Assembly: GCF_001887355.1 (NCBI RefSeq)
Contig: NZ_MPIN01000001.1
Span: 721,932 to 785,931, forward strand
Origin: Cystobacter ferrugineus
GTDB lineage: Bacteria; Myxococcota; Myxococcia; Myxococcales; Myxococcaceae
Reading direction: 5' to 3'
DNA: 64,000 nt
Shown here: in pieces, positions 40,663 to 47,339 of the stretch
How positions within the stretch are numbered: position 1 is the stretch's first letter
Layout of the letters: the number at the start of each line of letters is the position of its first letter
Made by a program: the position numbers and the translations under genes
The notes under the pieces: generated by a model
What the model saw: only the letters and a program-made list of their open reading frames with translations
The model's database searches: none
Told to the model about the DNA's origin: nothing

Positions 40663-40712
40663 GGTGGGCCACTCCTCTCGGTGCCCCGCGTGGAGGCACT
40701 TTTTCGCGAGTG

Positions 40713-40728
40713 TGTCGCGGTCGCGACA
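40713..40728. promoter_or_regulatory. predicted operator of the Crp/Fnr regulator
   Basis: TGTCGCGGTCGCGACA is a 16-base sequence whose outer seven bases on each side (TGTCGCG, CGCGACA) are perfect complements. TGTCGC...GCGACA is of the half-site form and spacing used by Crp/Fnr-family dimers. It lies between the divergent regulator (50 bases away) and alcohol dehydrogenase (60 bases away) genes. Confidence 0.65.
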
Positions 40729-40788
40729 GAGTTTGGGAGGTGGGGTGCCCATCATTCTCCTCGGATTCGACGCGAGAGGAGAAGCGAG

Positions 40789-41838
40789 ATGGCGACGATG
40801 TTGGCGGGTCGGCTCGACCTCGTGACGGGGAAGTTCGGGATGGAACAGGTGGCCATTCCCGAGCCAGGGCCGGGTGAAGTGCGCATCAAGGTGTTGGCGG
40901 CCGGTATCTGTCTGTCGGACGTGCACCTGATCGATGGTTCCCTGCGGTTGAAGCCGCGCCCGGGGTTCACGGCCGTCACCCTGGGCCATGAGGTCGCGGG
41001 TGTCATCGAGAAGCTCGGCGAGGGCACGGAGACCTGGTGGAAGGTGGGCCAGCGCGTCCTGCTCCAGGCGGGGCAGACGTGTGGAGCGTGCGCCCTGTGT
41101 ATGACGCGGACGGGGTGTCTGCGCCCGCTCACGCGAGGCGTGGACTACGACGGGGGCTGGGCCGAGTACGCGCTCGCCCGTCAGGACACGCTCATCGCCG
41201 TTCCGGACATGCTGCCCATCGAGCAGGCGGCCATTCTGCCGGACGCGGTCTCCACGCCATACGCGGCCATCGTGGAGACGGCGGCGCTGCGGCCCGCGGA
41301 GTCCGTGGGCCTCTGGGGCATTGGAGGACTGGGGGCGCACGGCGTGCAACTGGTGCGCGCGTTCGGCGCGGCGCCCATCATCGCCTTCGATCCCCTGCCG
41401 GAGGCGCGGGAGCGGGCGTTGGCGCTGGGCGCGGACCTGGCGTTGGATCCCCAGCAACCGGACGTGCGCGAGCAAGTGCTGAGCTGGACGGACGGGCGGG
41501 GACTGGACGTGGCGCTGGACCTGGCGGGCGTGGCTCCCGTGCGTGAGCAGGCGCAGTCGGTGCTGGCGCCGCGAGGCCGGCTCGTGTTGGTGGGCCTGAC
41601 GCCCGCGCCCCTGACGATCTCCCAGAGCATCGGCTTCTGCGTGGCGATGCAGCAGGTGAGGGGGCATTACGGCTCGCGGTTCGAGCACCTGCCGCAGCTC
41701 GTGAAGCTCACGCGGCTGGGCCGGCTCGACTTCTCCCGCTCGGTCAGCGCCGTGCTGCCCCTGGCGGACGCGCCACTGGGCGTCGAGCGCCTGATGAAGA
41801 AGCAGGGCAATCCCATCCGCCTCGTCCTCCAACCGTGA
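40789..41838 (+). CDS. zinc-binding alcohol dehydrogenase
   Basis: A 349-residue medium-chain dehydrogenase. It has catalytic zinc positions in AAGICLSDVH and TLGHEVAG, a structural zinc loop with cysteines (CGACALCMTRTGC), and the nucleotide fold VGLWGIGGLGAHGVQLVRAF followed by IIAFDPLPEAR, whose Asp at the end of strand two indicates NAD. It is co-oriented with the P450 gene starting 15 bases after its stop. A plausible sequence is hydroxylation of a fatty acid by the P450 and oxidation of the alcohol here. AGAGGAG stands before the ATG at 40789. Divergent from the Crp/Fnr gene. Confidence 0.9.
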   Translation: MATMLAGRLDLVTGKFGMEQVAIPEPGPGEVRIKVLAAGICLSDVHLIDGSLRLKPRPGFTAVTLGHEVAGVIEKLGEGTETWWKVGQRVLLQAGQTCGACALCMTRTGCLRPLTRGVDYDGGWAEYALARQDTLIAVPDMLPIEQAAILPDAVSTPYAAIVETAALRPAESVGLWGIGGLGAHGVQLVRAFGAAPIIAFDPLPEARERALALGADLALDPQQPDVREQVLSWTDGRGLDVALDLAGVAPVREQAQSVLAPRGRLVLVGLTPAPLTISQSIGFCVAMQQVRGHYGSRFEHLPQLVKLTRLGRLDFSRSVSAVLPLADAPLGVERLMKKQGNPIRLVLQP

Positions 41839-41852
41839 GCCGGAGTCCTTCG

Positions 41853-44800
41853 ATGATGAACAAGTCATCCCATTCGAGCAGCATTCCCCAGCCGCATGTG
41901 CGTCCCCTCGTCGGCAATGTGCCGGACGTCGGGTTCGAGACACCCCTGCAGAACATGATGAAGCTCGCGCGCGAGCTCGGGCCCATCTTCCGGCTGTCGT
42001 TCCCCGGAGGCCGCACCGCCCTGGTGCTCAGCTCTCATGAGCTGGTGGCCGATGTCTGTGACGAGAGCCGCTTCGACAAGCAGGTGAGCGGGGCGCTCAA
42101 GCAGATCCGCGACTTCGCGGGTGACGGCCTCTTCACGGCGATGACGGAGGAGCCCAACTGGGGCAAGGCCCACCGCCTGTTGATGCCCGCGTTCGGTCCC
42201 GCGGCCATGCGCAACTACCACGACGACATGCTCGACGTGGCCGACCAGATGTTCACGCGTTGGGAGCGCTTCGGGCCGGAGGCCGTGCTCGACGTGCCGG
42301 ACAACATGACGCGGCTCACGCTCGACACCATCGCGCTGTGTGGCTTCGGCTACCGCTTCAACTCCTTCTATCAGACGGAGATGCACCCCTTCGTCGAGTC
42401 CATGGTGCGCGCCCTGGCCGAGGCGGGCAATCGCGCCCGGCGTGTCCCGCTCCAGACGCAGCTCATGCTGCGCACCCAGCGCCAGTTCCAGGCGGACATC
42501 GGCTACATGCACGAGGTGACGCGCGAGCTCATCGCGAAGCGCCGCACGCTCACGCCCGAGGAGGCCCCGCGCGACCTGCTCAGCCTCATGCTCGACGCGA
42601 AGGACCCCCTCACGGGCGAGGGGCTCGACGAGGAGAACATCCGCAACCAGATGGTGACCTTCCTCATCGCGGGTCACGAGACGACGAGCGGCCTGTTGTC
42701 CTTCGCCACCTACTTCCTGCTGCGCCACCCCGAGGTGCTCGAGAAGGCCCATGCCGAGGTGGACCGGGTGCTGGGCGACGAGGTGCCGCGCTTCGAGCAG
42801 GTCGGCCAGTTGCACTACATCGATCAGATCCTGCGCGAGTCGCTGCGCCTGTGGCCCACCGCGCCGGCCTTCTCCGTGCACCCCAAGGCGGAGGAGACGC
42901 TGATCGCGGGCACCTACCCCATCCGCCGCGAGGACACCGCGGTGGTGCTCACCACGATGCTGCACCGCGATCCCACGGTGTGGAAGGACCCGGAGCGCTT
43001 CGATCCGGATCGCTTTGCCCCCGAGGTGCGCGACCGCATTCCGCCGCACGCGTGGAAGCCATTTGGCAACGGGCAGCGCTCGTGCATCGGCCGGGCGTTC
43101 GCGCTCCAGGAGGCCACGCTGGTGCTGGCCATGATGCTCCAGCGCTTCCACCTCGTGGAGCCCGCGCCGTACGAGCTCCACGTCCGCGAGACGCTCACGC
43201 TCAAGCCCGAGGGGCTCAAGCTGCGCGTCCGGGTGCGCAAGCCCGTCTCCCGTCCGCTCGCCTCGCGTCCCACGCCCGGTGCCGCCGCGCCCGCTCCGAA
43301 GCAGGAGGGAGTGGCCTCTCATGGCACGCCCCTGCTGCTGCTCTACGGCTCCAACTCGGGGGCCTCCGAGGCGTTCGCCCGGCGCATCGCCAGTGATGGG
43401 CTCGCGCGGGGCTACTCGGCGAAGGTGGCGCCGCTGGACGACTACACCGGGAAGCTGCCCAAGGAGGGCGCCGTCGTCCTCGTGACGGCCTCCTACAACG
43501 GCCAGCCGCCGGACAACGCGCGGGCGTTCCACACGTGGATTTCGAACATTCCCGAGGGCTCGCTGCTGGGCGTGCGCTACGCGGTGTTCGGCTGCGGCAA
43601 CCGGGACTGGGCCGCGACGTACCAGGCCATTCCCAAGCACTTCGACGAGCGGCTGAGCGCCGCGGGAGCCGAGGCGCTCGTCGCGCGGGGCGAGGCGGAT
43701 GCGCGGGGTGACTTCTTCGGGGACTTCGAGCACTGGTACGCGCCCTTCTGGGAGACGGTGGGGGCGGCGCTCGGTGTGTCCTCGCGCGCGGTGTCGTCCG
43801 AGCCGCTCTACACGGTGGAGGTGGTGCCCTCCTCGAGCGCGGAGCTGGTGAAGCAGAACAAGCTCGAGCTGGCCACGCTGGTGGACAACCGCGAGCTCGT
43901 CGACATGACGTCGCCGCTCGGCCGCTCCAAGCGGCACCTCGCCTTCAAGCTGCCCGAGGGCGTGACGTACGCGGCGGGTGACTACCTCGCGGTGCTACCG
44001 GAGAACCACCCGGACCTCGTGGAGCGCGCCGCGCGCCGCTTCGGACTGCGCACGGACGCCGCCGTCGTCCTGCACTCGACCCGGGGCGCCATGGCGTCGT
44101 CGCTGCCCACGGACACGCCGGTGTCGGTGCAGGAATTGCTCGGCCGGCACGTGGAGCTGTCGGCGCCCGCCACGCGCAAGGACCTGGAGCGGCTGGCGGA
44201 GAAGAACCCCTGCCCGCCGCACGCCATGCACCTGGCGGCCCTCGCCCAGGACGCCGAGCGCTACAAGAAGGAGATCCTCGACAAGCGCGTGAGCGTGCTG
44301 GACCTGCTGGAGCAGTACACCTCGTGCATCCTCACCTTCGGAGACTTCCTCGAGCTGCTGCCGGCCATGCGCGTGCGGCAGTACTCGGTGTCGTCCTCGC
44401 CGAGGGCGGACCCCACGGTGTGCACGTTGACGGTGGCGGTGGTGGACGCGGAGGCGTGGAGCGGCCAGGGCCGCTTCCATGGAACGTGCTCGAGCTATCT
44501 GGCGCGGCTGCGTCCGGGCGAGCAGGTGGCGGTGGCGGTACGCACGCCGAACGCGCCCTTCCACCCGCCCGCGTCGAACGCGACGCCCATCATCATGGTG
44601 GGCGCGGGCACGGGACTGGCGCCCTTCCGGGGCTTCATCCAGGAGCGCGCTCTGCGCCACACGCGAGGGGAGGCGGCCGGGCCGGCGTTGTTCTTCTTCG
44701 GGTGTGACCACCCGGAGGTGGACTTCCTCTACCGCGAGGAACTGGCGGCCTGGGAGCGCGAGGGCGTGGTGAAGGTGCTGCCCGCCTTCTTCCGCCAGCC

Positions 44801-45041
44801 CGAGGGCGACGTGATGTTCGTGCAGCACCGGCTGTGGAAGGAGCGCGAGCAGGTGAAGGCGCTGCTGGCCCAGGGGGCCCAATTCTTCATCTGCGGGGAT
44901 GGGCGGCGCATGGCGCCCGCGGTGCGCGAGACGTTGGCGAAGATCCACCAGGAGAGGGTGGGCTGCTCCGAGGCGGAGGCCACGGCGTGGCTGGAGGGAA
45001 TGGAGAAGCAGGGCCGCCTGGTGGCGGACGTCTTCGCCTGA
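41853..45041 (+). CDS. self-sufficient cytochrome P450/P450 reductase (CYP102/BM3 type)
   Basis: A 1062-residue fusion, close to P450 BM3 (1049). The haem domain (1 to about 465) has AGHETTSGLLSFATYFLLRH in the I helix, ESLRLWPTAP (ExxR) and the haem loop FGNGQRSCIGRAFALQEA with Cys411. A linker rich in Ala/Pro leads to an FMN domain (about 490-640, LLLLYGSNSGASEAFA, VLVTASYNG, FGCGNRDW), then an FAD/NADPH reductase (670-1062: MRVRQYSVSSSP, IMVGAGTGLAPFRGFIQERA, FFICGDGRRMAPAVRETLAK). CYP102 enzymes hydroxylate fatty acids near the omega end using NADPH. GGAG eight bases before the ATG at 41853 fixes the start. Partner: the dehydrogenase gene just upstream. Confidence 0.95.
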   Translation: MMNKSSHSSSIPQPHVRPLVGNVPDVGFETPLQNMMKLARELGPIFRLSFPGGRTALVLSSHELVADVCDESRFDKQVSGALKQIRDFAGDGLFTAMTEEPNWGKAHRLLMPAFGPAAMRNYHDDMLDVADQMFTRWERFGPEAVLDVPDNMTRLTLDTIALCGFGYRFNSFYQTEMHPFVESMVRALAEAGNRARRVPLQTQLMLRTQRQFQADIGYMHEVTRELIAKRRTLTPEEAPRDLLSLMLDAKDPLTGEGLDEENIRNQMVTFLIAGHETTSGLLSFATYFLLRHPEVLEKAHAEVDRVLGDEVPRFEQVGQLHYIDQILRESLRLWPTAPAFSVHPKAEETLIAGTYPIRREDTAVVLTTMLHRDPTVWKDPERFDPDRFAPEVRDRIPPHAWKPFGNGQRSCIGRAFALQEATLVLAMMLQRFHLVEPAPYELHVRETLTLKPEGLKLRVRVRKPVSRPLASRPTPGAAAPAPKQEGVASHGTPLLLLYGSNSGASEAFARRIASDGLARGYSAKVAPLDDYTGKLPKEGAVVLVTASYNGQPPDNARAFHTWISNIPEGSLLGVRYAVFGCGNRDWAATYQAIPKHFDERLSAAGAEALVARGEADARGDFFGDFEHWYAPFWETVGAALGVSSRAVSSEPLYTVEVVPSSSAELVKQNKLELATLVDNRELVDMTSPLGRSKRHLAFKLPEGVTYAAGDYLAVLPENHPDLVERAARRFGLRTDAAVVLHSTRGAMASSLPTDTPVSVQELLGRHVELSAPATRKDLERLAEKNPCPPHAMHLAALAQDAERYKKEILDKRVSVLDLLEQYTSCILTFGDFLELLPAMRVRQYSVSSSPRADPTVCTLTVAVVDAEAWSGQGRFHGTCSSYLARLRPGEQVAVAVRTPNAPFHPPASNATPIIMVGAGTGLAPFRGFIQERALRHTRGEAAGPALFFFGCDHPEVDFLYREELAAWEREGVVKVLPAFFRQPEGDVMFVQHRLWKEREQVKALLAQGAQFFICGDGRRMAPAVRETLAKIHQERVGCSEAEATAWLEGMEKQGRLVADVFA

Positions 45042-45200: not shown

Positions 45201-47339
45201 ATGGAACGTGTTCTCGACTCCGATTCGCCACCCGCCGCGTGCGCGGTGGCCGCCCCACTGCCCGACAACGAGCAGGAGCGGCTGGCGGCCCTGCGCAGCT
45301 ATGCGGTGCTCGATACGGAGCCCGAGCTGTCCTTCGACGACGTCACCCACCTGGCCTCGCGGCTCTGTGGCACCCCCATGGCATTGGTGGTCCTGGTGGA
45401 TGAGGCGCGCCAGTGGTTCAAGTCCCGCCAGGGCATGGACATCGAGGAGTGCTCGCGGGAGGAGGGCTTCTGTGCCCACACCATCCTTCAGCGTGAGCCC
45501 CTCGTCATCCAGGACGCCACCGCCGACGCCCGCTTCCGCGGCAACCCGTTCGTCGCGGCGCCCTCGGGCATCCGCTTCTATGCGGGCGCTCCCCTCATCA
45601 ACCCGCAGGGGCATGCGCTGGGGAGCATCTGTGTCCTCGACTACACGCCCCGTCAGCTCACCCCGGAGCAGACCCGCTCGCTCGAGGCCCTGGCCCGGCA
45701 GGTGGTCAGTCTGCTGGAGCTGCGGCGCATGAATTGCGAGCAGCGGCGGCTCATCGCCGAGCTGCGCACCAGCCAGGAGCGCATCGACATCCTCCAGCGC
45801 GCCACCCATGACGCCATCTGGGACTGGGATTTGAAGACCAACCAGCTCACGTGGAACCCGCGCCTCGCCGAGCTGCTCGGCGATGAGTTGGAGCACGCGA
45901 GGAGTGACATCTCCTGGTGGTTCGCTCGCTTCCACCCGGGGGACCGGGCACGTGTGAAGGACAGCCTCGACCGTGCCATCGCCCAGGGCGCCTCGATGTG
46001 GACGGATGAGTACCGCTTCCGCCTCGCCAATGGCACGTGGGCGCGAATGTTCAGCCGGTGCGCCATCCAGCGCGATGCCGAGGGCCATCCGCTGCGCCTG
46101 ATTGGCGTGAGCCTGGACATCAGCGAGCGCGAGGCGCTGCGTGCCCGCGTGGCGTTGGCGGAACGGATGAGCTCGGTGGGCACGCTCGCGGCCGGGGTGG
46201 CGCATGAAATCAACAACCCGCTGGCGTATGTCATGGCCAACCTGAACTACGCGCTGACGGAGGTGCGGGAGGGCCGGGCCGGAGCGCCTGACGCGGACGA
46301 GTTGACCCAGGTGCTCCAGGAGGCGCACGAGGGAGCCGAGCGCATCCGGCGCATCGTGCGCGACCTGAAGACCTTCAGCCGGCCGGCCGATGAGCGCATG
46401 GAGTGGCTGGATCTCCACCACACCATCGACTCGGCGGTGACCCTGGCATGGAACGAGCTCCGCCACCGGGCGCGCCTGGTGAAGCAGTACCAGGAGGTGC
46501 CCCGGGTGTATGCCAACGAGGGGCGTCTGGGGCAGGTGGTCCTCCACCTGCTGATGAACGCGGCGCACGCCATCCCCGAGGGCGCGGCGGACCAGAATGA
46601 GATCCGCATCACCACGCGCGTGGACGCCGAGGGGCGGGTGCTCATCGAGGTGAGCGACACGGGCCGTGGCATTCCCGAGGCCATCCGCTCGCGCATCTTC
46701 GAGCCGTTCTTCACCACCCAGCCGGTGGGCGAGGGCATGGGACTGGGGCTGTCCATCAACCACACGCTCGTCACCCACATGGGAGGGGAGCTTCAGTTCG
46801 AGAGCGAAGTGGACAAGGGCACGGTGTTCCGGGTGGTGCTCCCGCCTCCCGAGCGGCTCGCGCCCGAGAGCGCCCCCCCGCGGGAGCCCGTGCCCCCACC
46901 CGCCGAGGTCGCGGCCACGCGGCGCGGCCGCCTCCTGGTGGTGGACGATGAGGCCCGGGTTCTCTCCTCGCTGGAGCGCACGCTGGGCCGGACGCATGAG
47001 GTCATCACCTTCGAGCGGGCCCAGGCGGCGCTGGCGTGGTTGGAGCAGGGCCAGCCGTGGGACCTGATCCTCTGTGACGTGATGATGCCCGAGATGACGG
47101 GGATGGAGTTCCACGCGGCGCTCGCCCAGCGCATGCCCGAGCGCGTCCGGGACATCATCTTCATCACGGGCGGGGCGTTCACGGCGACGGCCCGCGAGTT
47201 CCTCGCGCGCGTGGACAACGCCCGGCTGGACAAGCCTTTCGACCTCCAGGCGCTGCGGGCCTTGGTGGAGGCGCGGCTGAAGGAGGTCAACCCCGTGCGT
47301 GAGTCTCCGCCCTCGCGGGACGGTGCCGCTCGCGGATGA
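45201..47339 (+). CDS. hybrid sensor histidine kinase with GAF, PAS and receiver domains
   Basis: A 712-residue soluble kinase. A GAF domain occupies about 25-180 (LSFDDVTHLASRLCGTPMAL, SREEGFCAHTIL, GSICVLDYTPRQLTPEQ), a PAS/PAC domain 195-310 (ATHDAIWDWDLKTNQLTWNP ... GVSLDISERE), the HisKA His335 in GVAHEINNPLAYVMANL, the HATPase domain has LLMNAAHAIPEG, DTGRGIPEAI and GMGLGLSINHTL, and a C-terminal receiver domain has LLVVDDEARVLSSLERTLG, Asp626 in LILCDVMMPEMTG and KPFD. The receiver suggests an intramolecular phosphorelay; no output domain or dedicated regulator is near. The 3' end overlaps the convergent lysR gene by 53 bases. Confidence 0.9.
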   Translation: MERVLDSDSPPAACAVAAPLPDNEQERLAALRSYAVLDTEPELSFDDVTHLASRLCGTPMALVVLVDEARQWFKSRQGMDIEECSREEGFCAHTILQREPLVIQDATADARFRGNPFVAAPSGIRFYAGAPLINPQGHALGSICVLDYTPRQLTPEQTRSLEALARQVVSLLELRRMNCEQRRLIAELRTSQERIDILQRATHDAIWDWDLKTNQLTWNPRLAELLGDELEHARSDISWWFARFHPGDRARVKDSLDRAIAQGASMWTDEYRFRLANGTWARMFSRCAIQRDAEGHPLRLIGVSLDISEREALRARVALAERMSSVGTLAAGVAHEINNPLAYVMANLNYALTEVREGRAGAPDADELTQVLQEAHEGAERIRRIVRDLKTFSRPADERMEWLDLHHTIDSAVTLAWNELRHRARLVKQYQEVPRVYANEGRLGQVVLHLLMNAAHAIPEGAADQNEIRITTRVDAEGRVLIEVSDTGRGIPEAIRSRIFEPFFTTQPVGEGMGLGLSINHTLVTHMGGELQFESEVDKGTVFRVVLPPPERLAPESAPPREPVPPPAEVAATRRGRLLVVDDEARVLSSLERTLGRTHEVITFERAQAALAWLEQGQPWDLILCDVMMPEMTGMEFHAALAQRMPERVRDIIFITGGAFTATAREFLARVDNARLDKPFDLQALRALVEARLKEVNPVRESPPSRDGAARG

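Follow-up and report, generated by a model that had tools for sequence, protein, structure and literature searches.

A Crp/Fnr-type regulator and its conserved palindrome beside a CYP102 gene of Cystobacter ferrugineus: a candidate local activator in place of TetR control

Introduction

The enzymes of the P450 BM3 group serve as workhorses, and the locus described here raises the question of how one of them could be controlled when the regulator beside it has a different fold from that of the regulators known for this family. In Bacillus, the CYP102 regulators Bm3R1 and FatR are TetR repressors that are displaced by fatty acids (PMC3814354). In the window, by which we mean the whole 64,000-nucleotide stretch of Cystobacter ferrugineus DNA analysed, a CYP102 relative lies behind a regulator of the Crp/Fnr fold; other copies in the same genus are flanked by TetR genes, so that two control logics could be compared. 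Our preferred reading, to which we give a probability of roughly 0.7, is that a dedicated local activator of the Crp/Fnr type has taken the place of a TetR regulator at CYP102. Present in two phyla and marked by a TGTC-N8-GACA site and an Mpo1-like partner, the regulator family offers a small and testable system for finding the signal of a non-standard Crp-fold pocket.

Organisation of the locus

The original prediction described a Crp/Fnr regulator divergent from a dehydrogenase-P450 pair and, in between, a perfect 7+2+7 palindrome (TGTCGCG-GT-CGCGACA). Gene positions and Pfam domains agree with the first statement, and the palindrome is an exact match in the window (Table 1).

Table 1. Features of the regulator-CYP102 locus, in coordinates of the window.
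Feature	Position	Strand	Basis
Crp/Fnr-type regulator, 235 aa	39955..40662	-	Pfam cNMP_binding and HTH_Crp_2; AF2 model; homologue alignment
Regulator-linked palindrome TGTCGCGGTCGCGACA, family form TGTC-N8-GACA	40713..40728		Exact in window; shared among homologous loci
-10-like hexamer CATCAT, 21 bases past the palindrome	40750..40755	+	Spacing conserved across non-redundant loci
Shine-Dalgarno-like GAGGAGAAG, ahead of the dehydrogenase	40776..40784	+	Read from sequence
Zinc medium-chain alcohol dehydrogenase (ADH), 349 aa	40789..41838	+	Pfam ADH_N and ADH_zinc_N
CYP102-family P450-reductase fusion, 1062 aa	41853..45041	+	Pfam p450, Flavodoxin_1, FAD_binding_1 and NAD_binding_1

The assignment of the P450 to the CYP102 family is right, since over the heme domain it shares 53.7% identity with the BM3 chain 8dmg (239/445, counted on the printed alignment). 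The protein thus has both marks of CYP102 membership, a P450 fused to an FMN/FAD reductase and more than 40% identity to BM3. R47, F87 and the FLIAGHETT motif of BM3 are present in the alignment and Y51 is replaced by V. The enzyme is a putative fatty acid hydroxylase. Only 14 bases separate the ADH stop from the P450 start, so the two genes probably form a single operon. In G001, a genome of the same genus, the P450 start is preceded by a similar Shine-Dalgarno-like sequence, GCAGGAGAAGCG.

ADH orthologues (96-97%) occupy the same position in two further genomes of the genus, G002 and G003, and the gene is not present at the G001 version of the locus. More distant orthologues (76%) occur at other genomic places in G010 and G030. 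The element upstream of the G030 orthologue (L205 1446-1485) resembles the TATAG element that precedes CYP102 genes of the TetB type. No such element stands before the orthologue in G010 (L204), so that outside support for a link between ADH and CYP102 is weak. On the 3' side of the P450, at 45201-47339, lies a hybrid sensor histidine kinase (GAF, PAS, HisKA, HATPase, receiver), which G002 and G003 also have in this position and which was not found in the G001 locus.

The regulator family and its usual partner

Homologous regulator loci were taken from relatives and from a scan of named genomes, giving 96 loci with 42-100% identity to the window protein. The scan supplied the best 80 of 482 loci; these are mostly from Pseudomonas, with Burkholderiales, Oxalobacteraceae, marine gammaproteobacteria and myxobacteria as the other groups, and a few loci represent the same genome twice. 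In the window's phylum, the regulator was detected at E <= 1e-40 in 14 of 195 genomes.

The divergent partner is an Mpo1-like gene, recognised by a match to an Mpo1-like protein, in 88 of the 96 loci, and PF06127 was confirmed for the two such partners that were checked. Judged by the family name and by citations, the bacterial Mpo1-like genes would encode 2-hydroxy fatty acid dioxygenases. Relatives of Mpo1, a 2-hydroxy fatty acid dioxygenase (PF06127), are the usual partner of this regulator family, whereas the partner in the window is ADH-CYP102. Pairing with CYP102 was met, among the 96 loci, only in the four genomes compared of the window's genus: ADH stands between regulator and CYP102 in the window, G002 and G003, and CYP102 follows directly in G001. 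G002 and G003 also have a second copy of the regulator, with an Mpo1-like partner. Four loci (L093, L101, L103, L150) have no divergent Mpo1-like, ADH or CYP102 gene; in the last three an Mpo1-like gene lies near the regulator in a different arrangement. At L093, from the Burkholderiales, regulator and palindrome face a divergent gene for an FAD-binding protein, possibly another exchange of partner.

These comparisons indicate that the regulator and its site form a wider module whose normal companion is an Mpo1-like gene. In the literature searched, we found no description of a regulator family with a TGTC-N8-GACA site and an Mpo1-like partner, and nothing relevant on an Mpo1/DUF962-regulator pair or on the sequence of the site.

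The palindrome and the regulator

The 12.05 Mb genome has a single copy of TGTCGCGNNCGCGACA, and the reversed control gave no match. Its general form, TGTC-N8-GACA, stands upstream of 92 of the 96 homologous regulators, in Myxococcota, Pseudomonas and Burkholderiales, and it recurs among the site-bearing loci while the central bases and most of the flanking sequence vary. Removal of near-identical upstream regions left 46 non-redundant site-bearing loci, whose dinucleotide shuffles contain a mean of 0.14 sites (maximum 2); as this set was picked for presence of the site, 92 of 96 is the unselected figure. None of 13 other Crp/Fnr loci (22-30% identity) has the site. The recurrence at 92 of 96 loci, the shuffles and the 0 of 13 together rule out a chance palindrome. 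By its distribution, the palindrome is to be assigned to the regulator and not to the P450.

These results modify the earlier view of the site. The palindrome described as of Crp half-site form is indeed there, but its half-site is TGTCG, where E. coli CRP has TGTGA. A search for the same palindrome ahead of homologous clusters had been proposed; it recurs at the homologous regulators and is not specific to CYP102, the partner being mostly Mpo1-like. Homologous regulators in front of unrelated genes with no such site had been named as a refutation of the idea. The outcome is mixed: another partner gene was found, yet the same palindrome is present there.

The palindrome also fits TGTYN8RAC (PMC4320627), the motif of MrpC, a developmental activator of the Crp family in Myxococcus xanthus, so cross-binding is possible and the operon could be part of the fruiting programme. 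MrpC resembles the window regulator in family, in its myxobacterial host and in the overlapping DNA motif, but it binds hundreds of developmental promoters, whereas the window family appears single-locus in the genus and occurs beyond the myxobacteria. Against use of the site by MrpC, it accompanies the regulator family into Pseudomonas and Burkholderiales, where, to our knowledge, MrpC is not expected, and it is absent upstream of regulator-less CYP102 copies in the same myxobacteria. We regard this explanation as very improbable and continue with the linked regulator as the protein that would bind the palindrome.

A search of the genome for TGTCGN6CGACA returned four matches, against one in the reversed control. 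The three matches outside the locus lack the CATNAT spacing described below and their contexts share no theme; they are treated as chance, and a genome-wide regulon was rejected. TGTC-N8-GACA was not found in the 3.2-3.4 kb loci around the Mpo1-like genes of the same genome, so that there is no sign of their control in trans. In G002, one locus (L180, G002:C1:9167821) has a TGTCGGTTAGCCGACA palindrome with no matching regulator alongside.

Fold and ligand pocket of the regulator

An AF2 model built from 51 homologues (pLDDT 86) matches CRP-family structures over nearly its full length, the best matches being GlxR and M. tuberculosis CRP (Z about 23-24; identity 22-24%). PF00027 and PF13545, the Crp/Fnr domain architecture, were found in 51 of 51 aligned members. 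Recognition-helix residues S195, R196, Q197 and N200 are present in all 96 homologues. The regulator shares with GlxR and M. tuberculosis CRP the overall fold, the Crp domains, a palindromic site with half-sites that begin with TGT and a class II-like position, but differs in the half-site (TGTCG versus TGTGA), in apparently having one local target and in a cAMP pocket that is partly not kept. The recognition helix reads SRQTTNQ in the window family and SRETVNK in M. tuberculosis CRP.

The pocket bears on whether the regulator could sense cAMP and so tie the operon to the global carbon state. Its closest solved structures, GlxR and M. tuberculosis CRP, are cAMP receptors, and R98 aligns with the PRT-motif arginine of the latter, a residue that contacts the cAMP phosphate. 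Of the 96 homologues, 93 have R98 and all have the neighbouring H100. However, R98 is missing from precisely the three regulators linked to ADH-CYP102, where it is L (window), L (G002) or S (G003). E. coli CRP contacts cAMP through T127 and S128 of its C-helix, but in this family T or A mostly occupies the first aligned position and F or L the second. In the alignment, then, the window protein lacks the combination of phosphate-contact arginine and C-helix adenine contacts that would mark a cAMP receptor. The composite promoter described below is also confined to the regulator's own locus, unlike the sites of a global CRP. A cAMP receptor at this locus is hardly credible.

The three regulators without R98 are close relatives, so its loss was probably a single event. 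The C-helix of the four CYP102-linked regulators also differs, with K139 changed to H or Q and F144 to L. The loss of R98 suggests a changed effector and, combined with the altered C-helix, means that the ADH-CYP102 branch may have a different ligand or none. The window regulator has a single cysteine, C87, and not the four cluster-binding cysteines of Fnr, the oxygen-sensing Fe-S regulator, which argues against an FNR-type cluster. As a speculative and rather doubtful extension, the family could be a fatty-acid-responsive Crp branch that normally binds a hydroxy fatty acid, a long-chain one or a derivative, each member activating one fatty-acid oxygenase gene, mostly Mpo1-like and here CYP102, with the pocket changing along with the target.

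Promoter geometry and proposed mechanism

Aligning the upstream regions by their palindromes brings out a second conserved element 22-28 bases further on, toward the partner gene. The spacer between palindrome and best -10-like hexamer measures 21 bases in 25 loci and 22 bases in 19, together 44 of the 46 non-redundant loci; in shuffles about 13% of best hexamers fall at spacers of 20-22. AT-N-AT begins at an offset of 21-25 in 31 of 46 loci, against 0.8 expected. The class II position of E. coli CRP is -41.5. The window hexamer predicts a transcription start near 40762 and places the palindrome centre at -41.5, and 44 of the 46 loci share this class II geometry (site near -41.5, -10 at 21-22 bases) as far as sequence geometry goes.

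The composite pattern site-N21-CATNAT matches once in the window's own genome, once in G001 and twice each in G002 and G003, always at regulator genes, with no match elsewhere in these four genomes and none in reversed controls. As the pattern was derived from the same loci, the informative part is the absence of matches elsewhere, and this confinement speaks for an activator that serves a single local target.

The main competitor is a repressor, in which the Crp fold would do the work of Bm3R1 and block the operon promoter until released by a fatty acid. The known control of CYP102 in Bacillus is of this kind, repression relieved by fatty acids (PMC3814354), the other CYP102 copies, with their TetR neighbours, may well follow this logic too, and the loss of R98 could mean binding to DNA without a ligand. 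However, the fixed distance of 21-22 bases between site and -10-like element agrees with class II activation, and 17 bases ahead of the hexamer there is nothing recognisable as a -35-like element; a simple repressor site needs no such phase. A fatty-acid-displaced repressor is therefore unlikely, and the promoter geometry suggests activation, unlike the repression exerted by Bm3R1. The window locus would then resemble Bm3R1/FatR with Bacillus CYP102 in having a linked regulator adjoining a CYP102 P450-reductase gene, with a probable link to fatty acids, and differ in its Crp/Fnr-fold regulator and activator-like promoter geometry as opposed to TetR repressors.

For the preferred reading, local activation, we propose that a regulator dimer binds the palindrome between the divergent genes and, at -41.5, recruits RNA polymerase as a class II activator would. 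The promoter has a CATNAT -10 element but no recognisable -35 at the proper distance, and the ADH-CYP102 operon would thereby be switched on. CYP102 would place on a fatty acid a hydroxyl that the dehydrogenase would then oxidise to a ketone. The palindrome lies about 58 bases before the regulator's start codon, so the bound regulator may also feed back on its own gene. CATNAT is a weak -10 match with a self-complementary core; as ATNAT reads alike on both strands, a promoter toward the regulator is possible. The sequences themselves show the order of the genes, the tie between site and regulator, the spacing of the -10-like hexamer, the two sorts of neighbouring regulator and their distribution over the genomes; binding, activation versus repression, evolutionary direction and order, effector, substrate and product are what we infer in this scheme.

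CYP102 copies with TetR neighbours

Twelve other CYP102 copies, from the same and related genomes, were compared. A TetR gene of one of two types is the neighbour of 11 of these, with TetR_N confirmed for one representative of each type, and the palindrome was not found within 1.6 kb upstream of any of them. Neither TetR protein from these loci had a match at the window locus or the three like loci (E <= 1e-5), and no TetR repressor linked to the P450, as in Bm3R1-type control, was found there. The CYP102 proteins of the window type and of the TetA type form one clade (100/100). The suggestion that this cluster represents a different way of controlling a CYP102 enzyme is thus partly sustained by the linked Crp-type regulator and the TetR genes at 11 of 12 other copies, with the reservation that neither regulator nor site is specific to CYP102.

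A change of regulator in the window's lineage is supported by these neighbour facts, and its direction and order would be as follows. The CYP102 gene would have come behind the regulator module in the window's genus, its near paralogues keeping a divergent TetR gene, and ADH may have been added or lost in G001. An ABC ATPase gene flanks the regulator in the genus; in six related genomes the roughly 700 bases examined beside its orthologue contain neither regulator nor CYP102, which fits a later arrival at this position. As the regulator tree gives no branching order for the window clade, the proposal that CYP102 replaced Mpo1 as partner draws on distribution and not on a rooted topology.

The twelfth copy (L040, G014:C494) is a CYP102 gene with neither the palindrome nor a TetR gene of either type. 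Six copies that are 56-62% identical (L033, L036, L037, L038, L039 and L041), each adjoined by a TetR gene, have a conserved element of the CTTATAG...CTATAAG type just before the start, which is likely to be a TetR operator.
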